Below are positions 561 to 6,837 of a DNA stretch of 6,955 nucleotides, one piece after another. Where the stretch lies: contig JAIDUY010000229.1 in NCBI GenBank assembly GCA_029059965.1, positions 1 to 6,955 on the forward strand, given 5' to 3'. The DNA is from Muribaculaceae bacterium (lineage in GTDB: Bacteria; Bacteroidota; Bacteroidia; Bacteroidales; Muribaculaceae). The notes beneath the pieces are model-generated. The model had not been told where the DNA came from. It searched no databases and was given only the letters and a program-made list of their open reading frames with translations. Within the stretch, counting starts at the first letter, position 1. Every line of letters starts with the position of its first letter. The translations under genes were made by a program, and so were the position numbers.

Positions 561-920
561 ATGATTACCAAGCAAGTCATACAGACACTGTACAAGAAGT
601 ACCGGAAGTTGCCCGAAAGTCCGGACTATCTGGACATACCGTTGCTTTTCGACTACGCTGCTCAGCATCACAACGTCAGCATCGACATGGATGGCCCGGT
701 AGATTCTTTGGTAATCAACAGCATAGACCCTGCGTCGCCTTTCCATCGCATCGCCCTGGAGCGTATTCACGCCATCGTTCCTTTCGAGGAGTGGGTGGCC
801 ATCGTGTTGCATTCTTCCATAATTTTCCTTAACAGGAAGTCGCCCAAGGTGAGCATACACATCCGCACGCACAAGCCCGGCCTGATGGACCGCATCACAG
901 GCTTGTTCAGCAAGAAATAA
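561..920 (+). CDS. Conserved hypothetical protein, 119 aa
   Basis: Complete open frame from ATG 561 to TAA 918-920. An in-frame TAG at 555-557 fixes ATG 561 as the first possible ATG start. I recognise the general pattern as a small Bacteroidales protein without assigned function but cannot name a domain. Residues 1-20 (MITKQVIQTLYKKYRKLPES) are basic and helical. A probable small mixed alpha/beta core follows, with SPFHRIALERIHAIVPFEE at 59-77 and a hydrophobic strand AIVLHSSIIFLN at 80-91. The tail (95-119) is basic and ends in GLFSKK. There is no signal peptide and no convincing transmembrane helix, so it is probably cytoplasmic. Three histidines (H62, H70, H84) sit in the central part, but nothing shows that they are catalytic. 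It has its own promoter and terminator and so appears to be a single-gene unit. Codon use matches the neighbours. Confidence 0.8.
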   Translation: MITKQVIQTLYKKYRKLPESPDYLDIPLLFDYAAQHHNVSIDMDGPVDSLVINSIDPASPFHRIALERIHAIVPFEEWVAIVLHSSIIFLNRKSPKVSIHIRTHKPGLMDRITGLFSKK

Positions 921-1166: not shown

Positions 1167-3323
1167 TTATTCTTCGGTGTTCTTCTCGGCGTATTCGCGC
1201 AGGAGCTTGTCCTGAACGTCGCCGGGCACGAGCTCATAGCTCGAGAACTTCATGGTGAACGACGAGCGTCCGCCGGTGATGGAACTCAGAGCTGTCGAGT
1301 AGCTTGCCATCTCTTTCAGAGGTACCTTGGCGGAAATCTTCTCGAAGCCGTTCTCGCTGTTCATGCCCATGATGATGGCACGGCGTCCCTGGAGGTCGCT
1401 CATCACGTCGCCCATCACGTCGCCGGGCACGAATACCTCGACGTCGTAGACGGGTTCGAGAACCTTGGGATTGGCTTCGCGGAATGCCTGGCTGAAGGCG
1501 TTGCGGCCTGCCAGACGGAAGGAGATTTCGTTGGAGTCTACCGGATGCATCTTACCGTCGTAGATGCACACGCGCACGTCGCGGGCGTAGGAACCCGTCA
1601 GAGGACCCTGTTCCATGCGGTCCATCAGACCTTTGACGATGGCGGGGATGAAGCGGGCGTCGATGGCGCCGCCGACAATGCAGTTGCACACTACAAGCTT
1701 GCCGCCCCATGCCAGAGGAATCTCCTGGGTGTCGCGCACGTTCATCTTGAACTCCTGGTTGCCGAAGCGGTAGCTGTCGGGAGCAGGCATACCCTCGGTG
1801 TAGGGCTCTACGATGAGGTGAACCTCACCGAACTGGCCCGAGCCGCCCGACTGCTTCTTGTGGCGGTAGTCGGCGCGTGCGGCCTTGGTGATGGTTTCGC
1901 GGTAGGGGATTTTGGGCTCCTCGAAGATGATGGGGAGCTTGTCGTTGTTCTCGACGCGCCATTTGAGGGTGCGCAGGTGGAATTCGCCCTGACCGGAGAG
2001 GATGGTCTGCTTGAGCTCCTTGTTCTGCTCGACCTGCCATGTGGGGTCTTCCTCGTGCATGCGGGTCAGGATGCCTGCCAGCTTCTCGGCGTCGCTTTCG
2101 GTCACGGGACGCACGGCGCGCTGGTACTTGGGCGCGGGATATTTGATGAAGTCGAATGCTATTTCGCAACCCTTCTCGTCGAGGGTGTTGCCTGTGCGCA
2201 CGTCCTTGAGCTTGACCGAAGCGCCGATGTCGCCTGCCTCGAGGGCGTCGACGGGCGTCTTGATCTGGCCGCATACGCAGTAGAGCTGGGCGAAGCGTTC
2301 CTTGCTGCCGCGGCTCACGTTCTCGAGGTCGGCACCGGCCTTGAGCGTGCCGCTCATCACCTTGAAGTAGCTCACTTCGCCGATATGGGGCTCGACGGTG
2401 GTCTTGAACACGAACAGGCTCAGCGGGCCGGCGGCGTCGGGCTTGACTTCATTGCCTTCGGTGTCGACCGGAGCAGGCATATCGTCCACGAAGGGAACGA
2501 CGTTGCCCAGGAATTCCATCATGCGGCGCACGCCCATGTCCTTGGCGGCGCTGACGCAGAATACGGGGTATATCGAGTTGTCGATGAGGCCTTTGCGGAT
2601 GCCCATGCGAAGCTCGTCCTCGGTGAGGTGCTCCTCTTCGAAGAACTTCTCCATCAGGGTCTCGTCGTTCTCGGCGGCAGCCTCCACCAGGGCGCGGTGC
2701 AGCTCGTTGGCGCGACCCATCTCCTCGGCGGGGATTTCCTCGATTTTAGGAACGCCGCCGTCGGGGCCCCACGAATATTTCTTCATCAGAAGCACGTCGA
2801 TCATGGCGTTGAAGCCGGGGCCGCTGGCCAGGGGATACTGCACGGGCACGACCTTCGGGCCGAAGATATCGCGCATCTGCTCGATTACGTTCTCGTAGTC
2901 GGCCTTCTCGCCGTCAAGCTGGTTGAGGGCGAAGATGATGGGCTTGTTGAGGCCGGAGGCGGTGCGGAAGATGTTCTGTGTGCCCACCTCGACGCCGTAC
3001 TGGCCGTTGATGACAATCACGCCCGTGTCGGTGACATTGAGGGCGGTGATGGCGCCACCGACGAAGTCGTCGGCTCCGGGGCAGTCGATGACATTGAGCT
3101 TTTTCTCCAGGAACTCTGCGTAGAACACGGTCGAGAACACCGAACTGCCGTATTCTTTCTCTACGGGGAAGTAGTCCGAGACGGTGTTGCCGGCTTCTAC
3201 AGTGCCGCGACGTTTTATAACACCACACTCGTAGAGCATCGCTTCTGCGAGTGTGGTCTTACCCGAGCCTTTGCTTCCGAGCAAGGCTATGTTTTTGATT
3301 TCTTTGGTTTTGTAGATTTTCAT
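1167..3323 (-). CDS. fusA2: Elongation factor G paralogue EF-G2, GTPase-degenerate
   Basis: 718 aa with the full five-domain EF-G plan: G domain (1 to about 285), beta-barrel domain II (about 290-395), III (about 396-470), IV (about 471-615) and V (about 616-700). It should bind the ribosome and move tRNA and mRNA. Domain IV keeps YRETI (474-478), the QSGGSGQFGEV segment (491-501) and the tip HPVDSNE (593-599). The GTPase motifs differ from canonical EF-G. The P-loop is GSKGSGKT (16-23) instead of AHIDAGKT. Switch I RGITI is replaced by YGSSV (58-62). DTPGH becomes DCPGA (80-84), losing the catalytic His. NKMD becomes NQLD (134-137). This is the pattern of Bacteroides thetaiotaomicron EF-G2, which supports translocation without GTP hydrolysis, is induced by carbon limitation and is required for gut colonisation. 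Domain IV holds about 20-25 extra residues around 509-540. Domain limits are estimates. ATG 3323 is followed directly by the G-domain strand; lon is transcribed divergently. Confidence 0.92.
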   Translation of the reverse strand: MKIYKTKEIKNIALLGSKGSGKTTLAEAMLYECGVIKRRGTVEAGNTVSDYFPVEKEYGSSVFSTVFYAEFLEKKLNVIDCPGADDFVGGAITALNVTDTGVIVINGQYGVEVGTQNIFRTASGLNKPIIFALNQLDGEKADYENVIEQMRDIFGPKVVPVQYPLASGPGFNAMIDVLLMKKYSWGPDGGVPKIEEIPAEEMGRANELHRALVEAAAENDETLMEKFFEEEHLTEDELRMGIRKGLIDNSIYPVFCVSAAKDMGVRRMMEFLGNVVPFVDDMPAPVDTEGNEVKPDAAGPLSLFVFKTTVEPHIGEVSYFKVMSGTLKAGADLENVSRGSKERFAQLYCVCGQIKTPVDALEAGDIGASVKLKDVRTGNTLDEKGCEIAFDFIKYPAPKYQRAVRPVTESDAEKLAGILTRMHEEDPTWQVEQNKELKQTILSGQGEFHLRTLKWRVENNDKLPIIFEEPKIPYRETITKAARADYRHKKQSGGSGQFGEVHLIVEPYTEGMPAPDSYRFGNQEFKMNVRDTQEIPLAWGGKLVVCNCIVGGAIDARFIPAIVKGLMDRMEQGPLTGSYARDVRVCIYDGKMHPVDSNEISFRLAGRNAFSQAFREANPKVLEPVYDVEVFVPGDVMGDVMSDLQGRRAIIMGMNSENGFEKISAKVPLKEMASYSTALSSITGGRSSFTMKFSSYELVPGDVQDKLLREYAEKNTEE

Positions 3324-3433
3324 GTTATCAGGGTTAGTATATTTGATTTAGGGTGAGGGGTGCATGGGGCCTTCTCGAAGACCTTTGCGGCTGCAATTTA
3401 GCGATTATTTTGTTAGGTTGGATATGCAAATCA

Positions 3434-3449
3434 TATGTTCTAAAACATA
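3434..3449. promoter_or_regulatory. Palindromic operator candidate between fusA2 and lon
   Basis: TATGTTCTAAAACATA has perfect 6-bp half-sites TATGTT and AACATA separated by 4 bp (14 of 16 positions symmetric), which fits a homodimeric helix-turn-helix regulator such as a CRP/FNR-family protein. Its centre (3441.5) is about 38-42 bp before the predicted lon start point, the class II activator position, and no -33 box is present there. An overlapping repeat ATATG-N5-CATAT lies at 3422-3436. In B. thetaiotaomicron the CRP-family regulator BT4338 (Cur) activates fusA2; assigning this palindrome to its orthologue is inference. No full TAnnTTTG box was found for fusA2; the best is TAAATTGC at 3400-3393 on the minus strand. 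Confidence 0.5.
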
Positions 3450-3461
3450 AGAGCCCAAAAA

Positions 3462-3487
3462 AAATTCGTAACTTTGGCATCGAATTT
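3462..3487 (+). promoter_or_regulatory. lon promoter -7 box within an inverted repeat
   Basis: TAACTTTG at 3469-3476 matches the -7 consensus TAnnTTTG. It is enclosed by a perfect 7-bp inverted repeat, AAATTCG (3462-3468) and CGAATTT (3481-3487), that also spans the predicted start point near 3480-3483. No TTG/TTTG occurs 19-21 bp upstream. Transcription would give a leader of about 105 nt before ATG 3586. Confidence 0.55.
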
Positions 3488-3585: not shown

Positions 3586-6000
3586 ATGGATAATTTCAAT
3601 AAGAAAGGCGTGCAGGTCATTCAGCTCGAAGAAGTGAATATCGACGTCGAACGCCTCAATACAGCCCCGGACTACGACCGGCTCAACATCATCGCCACCC
3701 GCAACCTGGTGCTCTTCCCCGGCGTGACCGTACACTTCGAGCTGGGCCGCGAGGCCGCGCTCGAGCTCGCACGCAGCGCCAACCACGCCGCATTCCCCAT
3801 CGGCATCGTCTGCCAGTTAAATCCCGACGACGATACCCCGGCAGTGACCACCGGACTCTACCGCTACGGTGTCATCGCCGACGTCATCAGCGTACACGAG
3901 CCCGAGGGAGCGTCGCCTATTGCAATAGTACGCGCGCGTGAGCGCTTCCGCATCCTCGGCGCGGCAAAGCCCGACGGAGCCGCGCCCGTGTCGCCCCTGA
4001 TGGCAAGGGTGAAGCCCGTGGCCGACCAGGAGCCCGCCGACAGCGAGCGCTTCGCCGAGATGATGAGGCAGATCATGGAATCCGCAGGCGAGTTCTACGG
4101 TCGTGCCGGCGACCCTCACCACATCTTCGCCAACATCCGCAACATCGACGGCCCGGCCGCCGTAATCAACACTCTGGCCACACACCTGCCCTTTGAGAGC
4201 AAGGAGAAAATAGAACTGCTCTCCAAGAGCCGCCTCGCCGACCGCGCCATGGGTCTCTACTCGCAGATAAGCATCTGCCTCGACCGCCTGCGCCTGACCG
4301 AGGAAATAGCCGAGCGCGCACGCCGCACCATGGACGAGAACCAGCGCAACGCCTTCCTCCAGAGTCAGATGGAAGCAATACGCGAAACCCTCTACGGCGA
4401 TCAGGACGACGAAATAGACACCCTCGTGGCACGCGCCGAAAAATCGGGTATGCCCCCGGCCGTACTCGAGACATTCGTCAAGGAGAGCGAGAAGATGCGC
4501 CGCTACAACCCATCGTCGCCCGACTATTCTATACAGTACAGCTACCTCGACACCCTCGCATCGCTGCCCTGGAACGAACGCACCTCCATGAATGGCAGCT
4601 TCGCCGACGCCACGGCCATCCTCGAGGCCGACCACTACGGTCTCGAGCGCGTCAAGCAGCGCATCCTCGAGCAGATTGCCGTGCTGATGCACAACCCCGA
4701 GGACCGCGGCACCATCATCTGCCTCGTAGGCCCTCCCGGCGTGGGCAAGACCTCGGTCGGACGCTCGGTGGCGCGTGCGCTCGGTCGCAAGTACCAGCGC
4801 GTAAGCTTCGGCGGCCTGCACGACGAGAGCGAAATCCGCGGACACCGCCGCACATACATCGGTGCCATGCCCGGCCGAATCATCGACGCCATCAAGCGCG
4901 TCGGCGTAATCAACCCCGTCATCCTGCTCGACGAAATCGACAAGATTGGCAAGGACTACAAGGGCGACCCCGCGGCAGCACTCCTCGAAGTTCTCGACCC
5001 CGAGCAGAACTGCCGCTTCCACGACAACTACATCGACGTGGACTTCGACCTCTCCGAGGTGCTCTTCCTGGCAACGGCCAATTCGCTGACCAACATACCC
5101 CGGCCCCTGCTGGACCGCATGGAGGTCATCGACATCAGCGGCTATCTGGCCGAGGAGAAAATCGAGATTGCGCGCCGTCACCTCATTCCGAGGGTTCTCG
5201 AACGCTTCCACCTCAATGCGGACGGCTTCGTCATCGCCGACGACGCCCTGACGGCCATAATAGCCGAATACACAGCCGAAAGCGGCGTGCGCGAGCTCGA
5301 GAAGAAGATTGTGGCGCTGGCACGCAAGGCCGTGCTCGCCACGCTCGAGGGCCGCGACTTCCCCAATCCGGTGCGCAAGGAGAACCTCTACGACCTGCTC
5401 GGACTGGCGCCCCGTCAGGCCGACGTCTACGAGGGTAACGAAATAGCAGGCGTCGTCACCGGTCTGGCCTGGACTGAGGTAGGAGGCGAGATTCTGATGG
5501 CCGAGGTAAGCCTCGCCCCCGCAAAGGAGGGTGGCATGACCGTGACCGGCAACCTCGGCAACGTCATGAAGGAATCGGCAGGCATCGCCTACCAGTGGGT
5601 CAAGGCTCACGCCGAAAGCATAGGCGTCGACCGCGAGGTGCTCAACGGCAACACTCTGCACGTCCACTTCCCCGAGGGAGCCGTCCCCAAGGACGGCCCC
5701 AGCGCAGGCATCACCATAGCCACAGCCATGGTCTCGGCACTGCGACACAAGCGCGTGGCTCCGCGCCTGGCAATGACAGGCGAGATCACCCTCCGCGGAC
5801 GTGTGCTGCCCGTGGGAGGCATACGCGAGAAAATCCTCGCGGCTAAGCGAGCCGGAATCACCGACATCGTCATGAGCGTGCGCAACCGCCGCGACATCGA
5901 CGACATGCCGCAGGCCTACCGCGACGGGCTCACATTCCACTACGTAGACACCGTCGAGCAGGTACTTGCCCTTGCCGTGACCGACATCGACGCCGTCTAA
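3586..6000 (+). CDS. lon: Lon ATP-dependent serine protease (endopeptidase La)
   Basis: 804 aa, full length for the LonA family. Lon forms a cytoplasmic homohexamer that unfolds and degrades misfolded and short-lived regulatory proteins using ATP. An N-terminal substrate-binding domain begins near residue 33 ([20 protein letters not shown]) and runs to about 230; a helical coiled-coil stretch follows to about 310. The AAA+ module has Walker A GPPGVGKT (382-389, Lys388), the [16 protein letters not shown] segment, Walker B VILLDEID (445-452), a sensor-1 region ATANSL and a sensor-2 region [10 protein letters not shown]. The protease domain has the catalytic Ser706 in PKDGPSAG (701-708) and Lys749 in [15 protein letters not shown], 43 residues apart as in E. 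coli Lon (679/722). All key residues are present, so it should be active. ATG 3586 is chosen because it is the first in-frame ATG before the conserved N domain and follows a recognisable promoter. The gene stands alone, divergent from fusA2, and ends in its own terminator. Confidence 0.97.
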
Positions 6001-6059: not shown

Positions 6060-6090
6060 TTGTGAATGCGGAAAAAATTCCGTAATTTTG
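6060..6090 (+). promoter_or_regulatory. Promoter of the membrane protein gene
   Basis: TTG (6060-6062) is followed after 20 bases by TAATTTTG (6083-6090), a close match to the Bacteroidetes -33/-7 consensus. The start point should be near 6094-6097. This places any initiation codon before about 6095, such as the in-frame TTG at 6088, outside the transcript. Confidence 0.8.
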
Positions 6091-6106
6091 CAGGCGGAAT
6101 CGGGAG

Positions 6107-6136
6107 CCCGCGGCCGCTTGTGCTATCCGCCGCGGG
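6107..6136 (+). promoter_or_regulatory. GC-rich hairpin in the leader of the membrane protein gene
   Basis: CCCGCGGC (6107-6114) and GCCGCGGG (6129-6136) form a perfect 8-bp stem with a 14-nt loop inside the roughly 70-nt leader, 29 bases before ATG 6166. No known riboswitch is recognised. Confidence 0.35.
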
Positions 6137-6165
6137 GCACTTGTCCACCCGACACGTTTTCGATT

Positions 6166-6837
6166 ATGTACAAATGGTTTGCCCGTTACGGCGTCTTTAT
6201 CGCCGGTCTGTATGTCCTCACACTCGGAGTCGTGCTCATCATCAGAGCCTCCCTCGGCACATCGCCGATTTCAAGTTTCACATATGTTCTGAGCCTCTTC
6301 ACCCCGCTGTCGCTGGGTTCGGCCACATTCATGCTTAATCTCGCGCTCATCGCGGGTCAGCTGTGGTTCGTGCGCGGCATCGGCACCCGCCAGGACTACA
6401 TCGAGATTATGCTTCAGATTCCCTTTTCGGTGCTGTTCTCGGTCTTTCTCGACCTCAACATGATGCTCACGGCCTCGGTAGCGCCGGCAGGCTATGTGTC
6501 GGCCGTGGCCATGCTTGTCGCCGGATGCCTTGTGCAGGCTCTCGGCGTGGCTTTGGAGCTTAAGCCCAATGTGGTGGCAATGAGTGCCGAAGGCTTCGTC
6601 AAGTACGGCAGCCGCCGCTATCACCGCAGCTTCGGCCGTTTCAAGGTCGGCTTCGATGTGTCGCTCGTCCTGCTTGCCGTCGTGGCCTCGGTGGCTATGT
6701 GCGGCTCGGTGGCAGGAGTGCGCGAGGGCACTCTCGTGGCCGCGGTGTCGGTGGGGCTGCTTGTCAATTTCATAAATGTCAGGCTGCTGAGCCCGTCGCG
6801 TGTCGGCCGGCTGCTGAGTCTGTTCCGCCTCGGCTGA
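6166..6837 (+). CDS. YczE/YitT-like integral membrane protein (DUF6198 type)
   Basis: 223 aa from ATG 6166 to TGA 6835-6837. The open frame continues upstream to a TTG at 6088, but that codon lies in the -7 promoter box and the added residues (GARGRLCYPPRG and so on) do not look like family sequence, so ATG 6166 is preferred. About six hydrophobic segments are visible: residues 7-26, 50-68, 83-104, 108-130, 162-182 and 188-206. The motif IRASLGTSPISSFTYVLS (26-43) after the first helix and VREGTLVAAVSVGLLV (185-200) before the last are characteristic of the YczE/YyaS/YitT group (COG2364). A basic loop GSRRYHRSFGRFK (148-160) is probably cytoplasmic. The family is predicted to be an inner-membrane transporter or membrane protein; its substrate is unknown, so no function is assigned. 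It has its own promoter and does not appear to be cotranscribed with lon. I saw no terminator directly after it. Confidence 0.8.
   Translation: MYKWFARYGVFIAGLYVLTLGVVLIIRASLGTSPISSFTYVLSLFTPLSLGSATFMLNLALIAGQLWFVRGIGTRQDYIEIMLQIPFSVLFSVFLDLNMMLTASVAPAGYVSAVAMLVAGCLVQALGVALELKPNVVAMSAEGFVKYGSRRYHRSFGRFKVGFDVSLVLLAVVASVAMCGSVAGVREGTLVAAVSVGLLVNFINVRLLSPSRVGRLLSLFRLG

Follow-up and report, generated by a model that had tools for sequence, protein, structure and literature searches.

A likely hydrolysis-independent EF-G2 of the Bacteroides type in a Muribaculaceae bacterium, with a domain IV insert and a Cur-type box

It has long been asked whether elongation factor G (EF-G) needs to split GTP in order to drive the ribosome forward, and EF-G2 of Bacteroides offers a natural counter-case. 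We asked whether the same behavior can be expected of an EF-G2 (fusA2-type) gene found in a 6,955-nucleotide stretch of DNA from a Muribaculaceae bacterium (assembly GCA_029059965.1, contig JAIDUY010000229.1; the whole stretch is called the window below). A preliminary description of this DNA had stated that EF-G2 of B. thetaiotaomicron translocates without GTP hydrolysis and aids gut colonization, and we found support for both statements, the former in papers that cite Han et al. 2023 (PMC12775393, PMC10294740) and the latter in a report on carbon limitation (PMC6989115). The description had also given the coordinates of the gene correctly, to which the strand is to be added: the gene lies on the minus strand, with its ATG at 3323-3321 and its stop codon at 1169-1167, and the frame of 718 amino acids is intact. 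We consider it likely that the product is a Bacteroides-type EF-G2 that lacks the catalytic His, is induced by carbon starvation and translocates without hydrolyzing GTP while still binding guanine nucleotide. Hydrolysis-free translocation is better argued from orthology, a shared insert and a shared regulatory site than from the altered GTPase motifs.

The orthology was apparent from both model scores and pairwise identity. The window protein scored above the cut-off of the NCBIfam model EFG2_Bacteroid over residues 1-716 (Table 1), whereas the canonical EF-G model TIGR00484 gave 509.1 bits against a cut-off of 659.4, and Ala84 occupies the position of the switch II His. B. thetaiotaomicron EF-G2 (fusA2, BT2167) was represented in our comparison by the EFG2_Bacteroid model and by the Protein Data Bank (PDB) chain 7uvp/8dmf, whose species is unstated. 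Over the full length, this solved EF-G2 chain and the window protein agree at 524 of 718 residues (73%), and identity rises to 81% in domain IV; the two also share the types of altered motif and an insert. By score, identity and insert the window protein is an orthologue of Bacteroides EF-G2 and, on this sequence evidence, another member of a family already described. It differs from the solved chain in its P-loop (GSKGSGKT versus GSSGSGKT), in switch I (YGSSV versus YGYSV) and at position 84 (Ala versus Ser), and its gene comes from what is likely another Bacteroidales family and adjoins lon. The closest named relatives, at no more than 93% identity, are from Muribaculaceae and Porphyromonadaceae metagenome assemblies; a word search, with thin coverage of subscription journals, found no literature on EF-G2 in Muribaculaceae. 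The EFG2_Bacteroid model also takes in a distant protein (L096, 1024.3 bits) whose insert is shorter and whose motifs remain DTPG and NKLD, so the family name alone does not imply the Bacteroides features.

A separate canonical fusA is present elsewhere in the same genome, a draft that is 83% complete and spread over 545 contigs. It lies on contig C268 among the genes for ribosomal proteins S12, S7 and S10, an arrangement that identifies the str operon, and its aligned motifs read AHIDAGKT, RGITI, DTPGH and NKMD. In a maximum-likelihood tree of 73 hand-picked rows, from which the motif and insert columns had been excluded and which was rooted on canonical EF-G as the sole outgroup, the window protein fell within the EF-G2 lineage and apart from canonical EF-G, with both sides starred at 100. 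The tree was a quick run with Shimodaira-Hasegawa-like approximate likelihood ratio support only; 17 of its 70 inner branches were drawn open, and 7 of the 9 insert-free loci described below were included.

The four altered motifs, GSKGSGKT, YGSSV, DCPGA and NQLD, read exactly as the preliminary description had them, and the retention of Lys22 and Thr23 was likewise confirmed. We compared these positions across 195 EF-G2 loci, namely 80 close relatives (the best 80 of more), 60 loci from the order and, from the phylum, 46 with the insert and 9 without; two identical pairs (L079/L154 and L093/L160) leave 193 distinct loci. The switch II His was absent from all 195. Lys22 and Thr23 were present in each of the 194 readable loci (79/79 in the close set; one locus was cut off), Ser61 in 193, with Thr in the other two, Asp80 in 195, Asn134 in 191 and Asp137 in 188. 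Within the close set, switch I is YGYSV in 70 loci and YGSSV in 10, the G3 motif is DCPG followed by Ala (67), Ser (9) or Gly (4), and G4 is NQLD in 77. Motif forms this consistent across 80 loci argue that the alterations are due neither to chance nor to decay.

What the motifs do not do is set this protein apart, as had been supposed. The loss of RGITI together with Ser at the fourth G2 position, which coordinates Mg, is common to the entire EFG II subfamily, defined in 2011, for which a Bacteroidetes switch I of YGYSV and a Gly in place of the Ala that opens the P-loop are also reported (PMC3150367). As in that subfamily, the window EF-G2 is accompanied by a canonical EF-G, a point that we checked in its own genome. 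Since the motif changes are a mark of the subfamily and its members differ in activity, the altered motifs are no proof of GTPase loss, and we rejected the argument that they suffice: Thermus EF-G-2 is reported to hydrolyze GTP (PMC3150367), and M. smegmatis EF-G2 is reported to bind nucleotide with ribosome-dependent GTPase activity absent (PMC3150367; likewise PMC3832671). The nine insert-free EFG II members differ from the window protein in keeping the G4 Lys (NK.D in 6, TK.D in 3), and 7 of them have D.PG with Thr.

The pattern of conservation around the pocket bears on nucleotide binding. In the order set (60 loci) position 84 stands at the 86th percentile of variability within the G domain, and in the phylum set (46 loci) at the 67th. 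Residues 22, 23, 61, 80, 83 and 134 are invariant in the order set; the conservation of Ser258 in G5 is middling there (53rd percentile). With the P-loop Lys and Thr and the switch II Asp invariant, the G4 Asn and Asp nearly so and the catalytic position drifting freely, these data suggest that the window protein still binds guanine nucleotide.

Two features beyond the preliminary description tie the gene to Bacteroides EF-G2, the first being an insert of 28 residues in domain IV. Of these 28 residues 19 match the solved chain, and 80/80 close loci carry the insert. Aligned with Thermus EF-G, the additional residues fall at about 511-536. Han et al. 2023 reportedly connected both the absence of GTPase activity and departure from the ribosome with a region of 26 residues, and we infer that the insert at about residues 510-537 is this region. 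Insert length was measured over the span of window residues 509-540, which holds 32 residues in the window protein. In the order set this span holds 32 residues in 48 loci, 23 in 8, 48 in two and 34 in one, and it is broken in L173; in the insert-bearing phylum set it holds 32 in 2 loci and 23-25 in 44, and in the nine insert-free loci it holds 4. The two loci with 48 residues, L204 and L209, are EF-G2s with a still longer insert. L173 (G405:C36) is an EF-G2 match with one in-frame TAG and a readable frame of just 533 amino acids, which could reflect an error, a pseudogene or something else. Three canonical EF-Gs from other Bacteroidota (L140, L141 and L144), with DTPGH intact, fill this span with 16-18 residues, so loop length alone is not tied to loss of the His.

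The second feature is a perfect Cur-type box with a conserved-spacing element. The box, TATGTTCTAAAACATA, sits in the gap that separates EF-G2 from the divergent lon gene, 110 bp upstream of EF-G2, with 4/6 of its flanking A/T positions fitting; the consensus is that published for BT4338 of Bacteroides, and a box is likewise reported upstream of BT2167 (PMC6989115). The same report names fusA2 (BT2167) as directly activated by BT4338/Cur, as its strongest target in carbon limitation and as required for gut colonization. Of 200 shuffled windows, 7 held a box match of any kind at up to 3 mismatches. Across the draft genome as a whole there are 3 perfect boxes and 6 places within one mismatch, compared with 0 for a reversed control pattern. 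Among related loci, the box was found with at most 2 mismatches in 67/74 (within 400 bp upstream), versus 11 of 1480 single-letter shuffles. A promoter-like element, TAnWTTG, follows on the EF-G2 side: box (at most 3 mismatches) and element occurred together in 61 of 78 upstream regions, at a spacing of exactly 33 nucleotides in 60, and in 1 of 3900 two-letter-block shuffles, a count that is descriptive. The 78 regions comprise 77 loci and the window; L009 and L072, whose gene starts are cut off, and L042, with 112 nucleotides, were dropped. In the order set the pair occurred in 7 of the 19 loci that combine DCPG with YG[YS]S and in none of the 39 others (Fisher p 0.00017, which is only a guide because the rows are related, L154 equals L079, and the upstream DNA of L210 and L212 is too short). 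This distribution suggests that the Cur-box wiring belongs to the gut clade that has the YGYSV pocket.

The other boxes in the genome were examined for their neighbors. One perfect box (C525:5956-5971, L089) lies 130 nucleotides before an open reading frame with a TonB-receptor plug and CarbopepD_reg_2, and a Reg_prop frame lies on its other side. A TonB receptor together with Reg_prop is the usual make-up of a polysaccharide utilization locus, so these neighbors fit a sugar regulator. The remaining perfect box (C189:635-650, L088) lies 38 nucleotides before a frame of 411 amino acids without a Pfam match. Of 8 open reading frames scanned near other boxes, 4 have a Pfam family: YceG and Dus stand beside one-mismatch boxes, and two frames flank the L089 box. 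Control of lon by the box between the two genes was also considered and dropped: a TAnnTTTG element is present on the lon side of the box in the window (plus strand, 3469-3476), and in 31 lon-adjacent regions no TAnnTTTG-to-box spacing recurs in more than 4.

The preliminary description had called domains III-V well kept. This holds for domains IV and V, with Pfam scores of 107.3 (EFG_IV) and 93.0 bits (EFG_C) where the genome's canonical EF-G has 139.9 and 107.2, but not for domain III, which is strongly diverged at 59.6 versus 112.5 bits. Residues 488-499 and 588-598, which we take to be loops I and II of domain IV, are nearly or fully identical to the solved chain (Table 1), and the tip His (His593) is present in 194 of the 195 EF-G2 relatives. 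The protein thus has the five-domain layout and the domain IV tip His of canonical EF-G (EFG I), and departs from it in lacking the switch II His, RGITI and NKMD and in carrying the insert. A structure predicted from an alignment of 28 close relatives was poor (mean predicted local distance difference test score 45.6, predicted template modeling score 0.38) and supports no conclusion; the protein database search, saturated by near relatives (7995 scored, the best 120 of them listed), was used only to supply rows for that model.

Taken together, these observations can be arranged in a model. Under carbon limitation, a putative local Cur orthologue would bind the box and switch the gene on. The protein would then bind the ribosome, its pocket probably occupied by GTP, and binding of domains IV-V would drive slow translocation, the well-kept domain IV tip pushing the tRNAs and mRNA. 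With the His absent, and with the insert lying downstream of domain IV loop I in sequence, release may need no hydrolysis, and the insert may assist it. GTP would thereby be spared in starving cells, with canonical EF-G serving rapid growth.

Several points weigh against this reading. The GTPase result for Bacteroides EF-G2 is taken from citing papers, not from the primary one. Thermus EF-G-2, which belongs to the broader subfamily too, is reported both to bind and to hydrolyze GTP (PMC3150367, PMC3832671), and in one study the His-to-Ala change in E. coli EF-G (H91A) slowed ribosome-stimulated hydrolysis only about sevenfold (PMC4532990). An EF-G that keeps about one seventh of the rate after this substitution means that a lost His need not entail zero GTPase. 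On the regulatory side, 17/78 upstream regions are without the box-plus-element pair, as are 12/19 order-set loci of the window's own motif group, and the TAnWTTG pattern and the 31-35 nucleotide range were picked after viewing the same regions in which they were counted. Autoregulation has been proposed for BT4338 (PMC3878776). The sole Crp-family gene above cut-off in this incomplete genome, of 232 amino acids, has no good upstream box (the best has 4 mismatches), and we do not identify it as Cur, no BT4338 sequence having been compared; with the genome incomplete, the true Cur may lie elsewhere.

The Thermus and H91A results, together with the retained nucleotide-contact residues, would also suit an EFG II-type factor that still hydrolyzes GTP on the ribosome, at a slower rate, with Ser61 and other residues substituting for those lost. 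We regard such a factor as unlikely, for the window protein is 73% identical to, and has the insert and the DCPG/YG.SV motifs of, a Bacteroides-type protein that has a relative reported to be hydrolysis-free. Somewhat less probable again is a protein of EF-G shape that acts mainly in recycling, rescue or ribosome storage and translocates little in cells. The distance of domain III from that of the canonical EF-G would agree with such a role, and EF-G copies in Borrelia and human mitochondria are reported to split translocation from recycling (PMC3150367); against it stand the domain IV tip loops, kept at 11/12 and 11/11 residues, and the report that the Bacteroides relative translocates (PMC12775393).

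The two remaining alternatives we hold to be very improbable. A decaying duplicate, its GTPase motifs lost under relaxed selection, would account for a catalytic position that varies freely, but it is at odds with the intact frame, with the invariant P-loop and switch II residues, with a domain IV that is 81% identical to the solved chain and with the match at E 1e-150 or better in 138 of 149 Bacteroidales genomes (11 have none); we rejected a pseudogene on this conservation. Least probable of all is a tetracycline ribosome-protection protein. Such proteins, of the Tet(Q) type, have an EF-G-like fold, and 7uvp/8dmf, the nearest structure, is named for TetQ in the PDB. The window protein scored 254.1 bits on the general tetracycline protection model (cut-off 775) and 119 on the Tet(Q) model (cut-off 1425), the two models being NF012153/NF012154, and the chain itself gave 139.6 bits for Tet(Q) and 1390.5 for EFG2_Bacteroid. 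Tetracycline protection is ruled out by these scores; the tree held no tetracycline-protection protein. As a separate matter, the PDB name of the chain, "Tetracycline resistance protein TetQ", appears to be wrong given the model scores.

The reading of a Bacteroides-type, GTP-binding and non-hydrolyzing EF-G2 can also be set in the history of the family. On the rooted tree, loss of the His and the YG pattern in switch I are each explained by 1 change and the three insert classes (0, about 19 and about 28 residues) by 2. DCPG takes 4 changes and the G4 Lys 5, and neither is therefore a single event. On these counts the His was lost first, the insert was gained later in two steps (about 19 residues, then 9) and the YGYSV pocket came last, in one clade. 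In the phylum sample, 245/296 genomes give a hit that reaches E 1e-95 or better, canonical EF-Gs being among these hits, and 109/296, the genome studied here being counted, have a full-length match of at least 555 bits; 46 of these 109 were read, and all 46 have the insert. A bolder proposal, which we put forward only tentatively and with less confidence than our reading of the single protein, is that the whole insert-bearing Bacteroidota EF-G2 clade consists of GTP-binding, non-hydrolyzing translocases, built stepwise (His loss, a 19-residue insert, 9 residues more, YGYSV/DCPG) and wired to Cur in one gut clade. Hydrolysis-free elongation would then be old and phylum-wide.

The window also contains features outside the main subject (Table 1). 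The divergent lon gene is given for context and stands outside the proposed mechanism; lon lies divergent from EF-G2 within about 550 nucleotides in 32/80 close loci, so this head-to-head pairing is common but not universal. An open frame of 119 amino acids (561-920, plus strand) has no match in Pfam or NCBIfam. A DUF3127 protein (Pfam PF11325, 101.2 bits) is encoded at 1-273 on the minus strand and is truncated at the window edge, and a membrane protein at 6088-6837 (plus strand) matches DUF6198 weakly (33.2 bits) and YczE at 26.9 bits, below the cut-off of 205.

Table 1. Coordinates and supporting evidence for EF-G2, its motifs and nearby elements in the window
Feature	Coordinates	Strand	Evidence
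EF-G2 coding sequence, 718 amino acids, ATG start	1167..3323	-	Open reading frame; NCBIfam NF058620 1325.6 bits (cut-off 1000)
G1/P-loop GSKGSGKT, residues 16-23, Lys22 and Thr23 retained	3255..3278	-	Sequence; 194/194 readable relatives
Switch I YGSSV, residues 58-62 (canonical RGITI), Ser61 for the Mg-coordinating Thr	3138..3152	-	
G3 DCPGA, residues 80-84, Ala84 for the switch II His	3072..3086	-	No His in 195/195 relatives
G4 NQLD, residues 134-137, Gln for Lys, Asn and Asp retained	2913..2924	-	
Presumed domain IV loop I, residues 488-499 (HKKQSGGSGQFG)	1827..1862	-	11/12 identical to solved EF-G2 chain
EF-G2 insert in domain IV, about residues 510-537 (28 residues)	1713..1796	-	Gap relative to Thermus EF-G
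Presumed domain IV loop II, residues 588-598 (YDGKMHPVDSN), tip His593 kept	1530..1562	-	11/11 identical to solved EF-G2 chain
Promoter-like element TAAATTG	3394..3400	-	33 nucleotides after the box, EF-G2 side
Cur/BT4338-type box TATGTTnTAnAACATA	3434..3449		16-bp core, 0 mismatches to published consensus
Divergent neighbor lon (Lon protease)	3586..6000	+	TIGR00763 790.5 bits

The present analysis adds the insert, a starvation-type promoter outside Bacteroides, a near-invariant nucleotide pocket and a stepwise history. The steps of that history survive in living intermediates, which lack both His and insert, carry the 19-residue insert, carry 28 residues with DTPG, or carry 28 with DCPG and YGYSV. 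With this panel one could ask at which step hydrolysis ceased and at which release became possible without it. Conservation of the Cur-type box beyond Bacteroides points to a use of EF-G2 in starvation that reaches Muribaculaceae and their near relatives, which are common gut bacteria.

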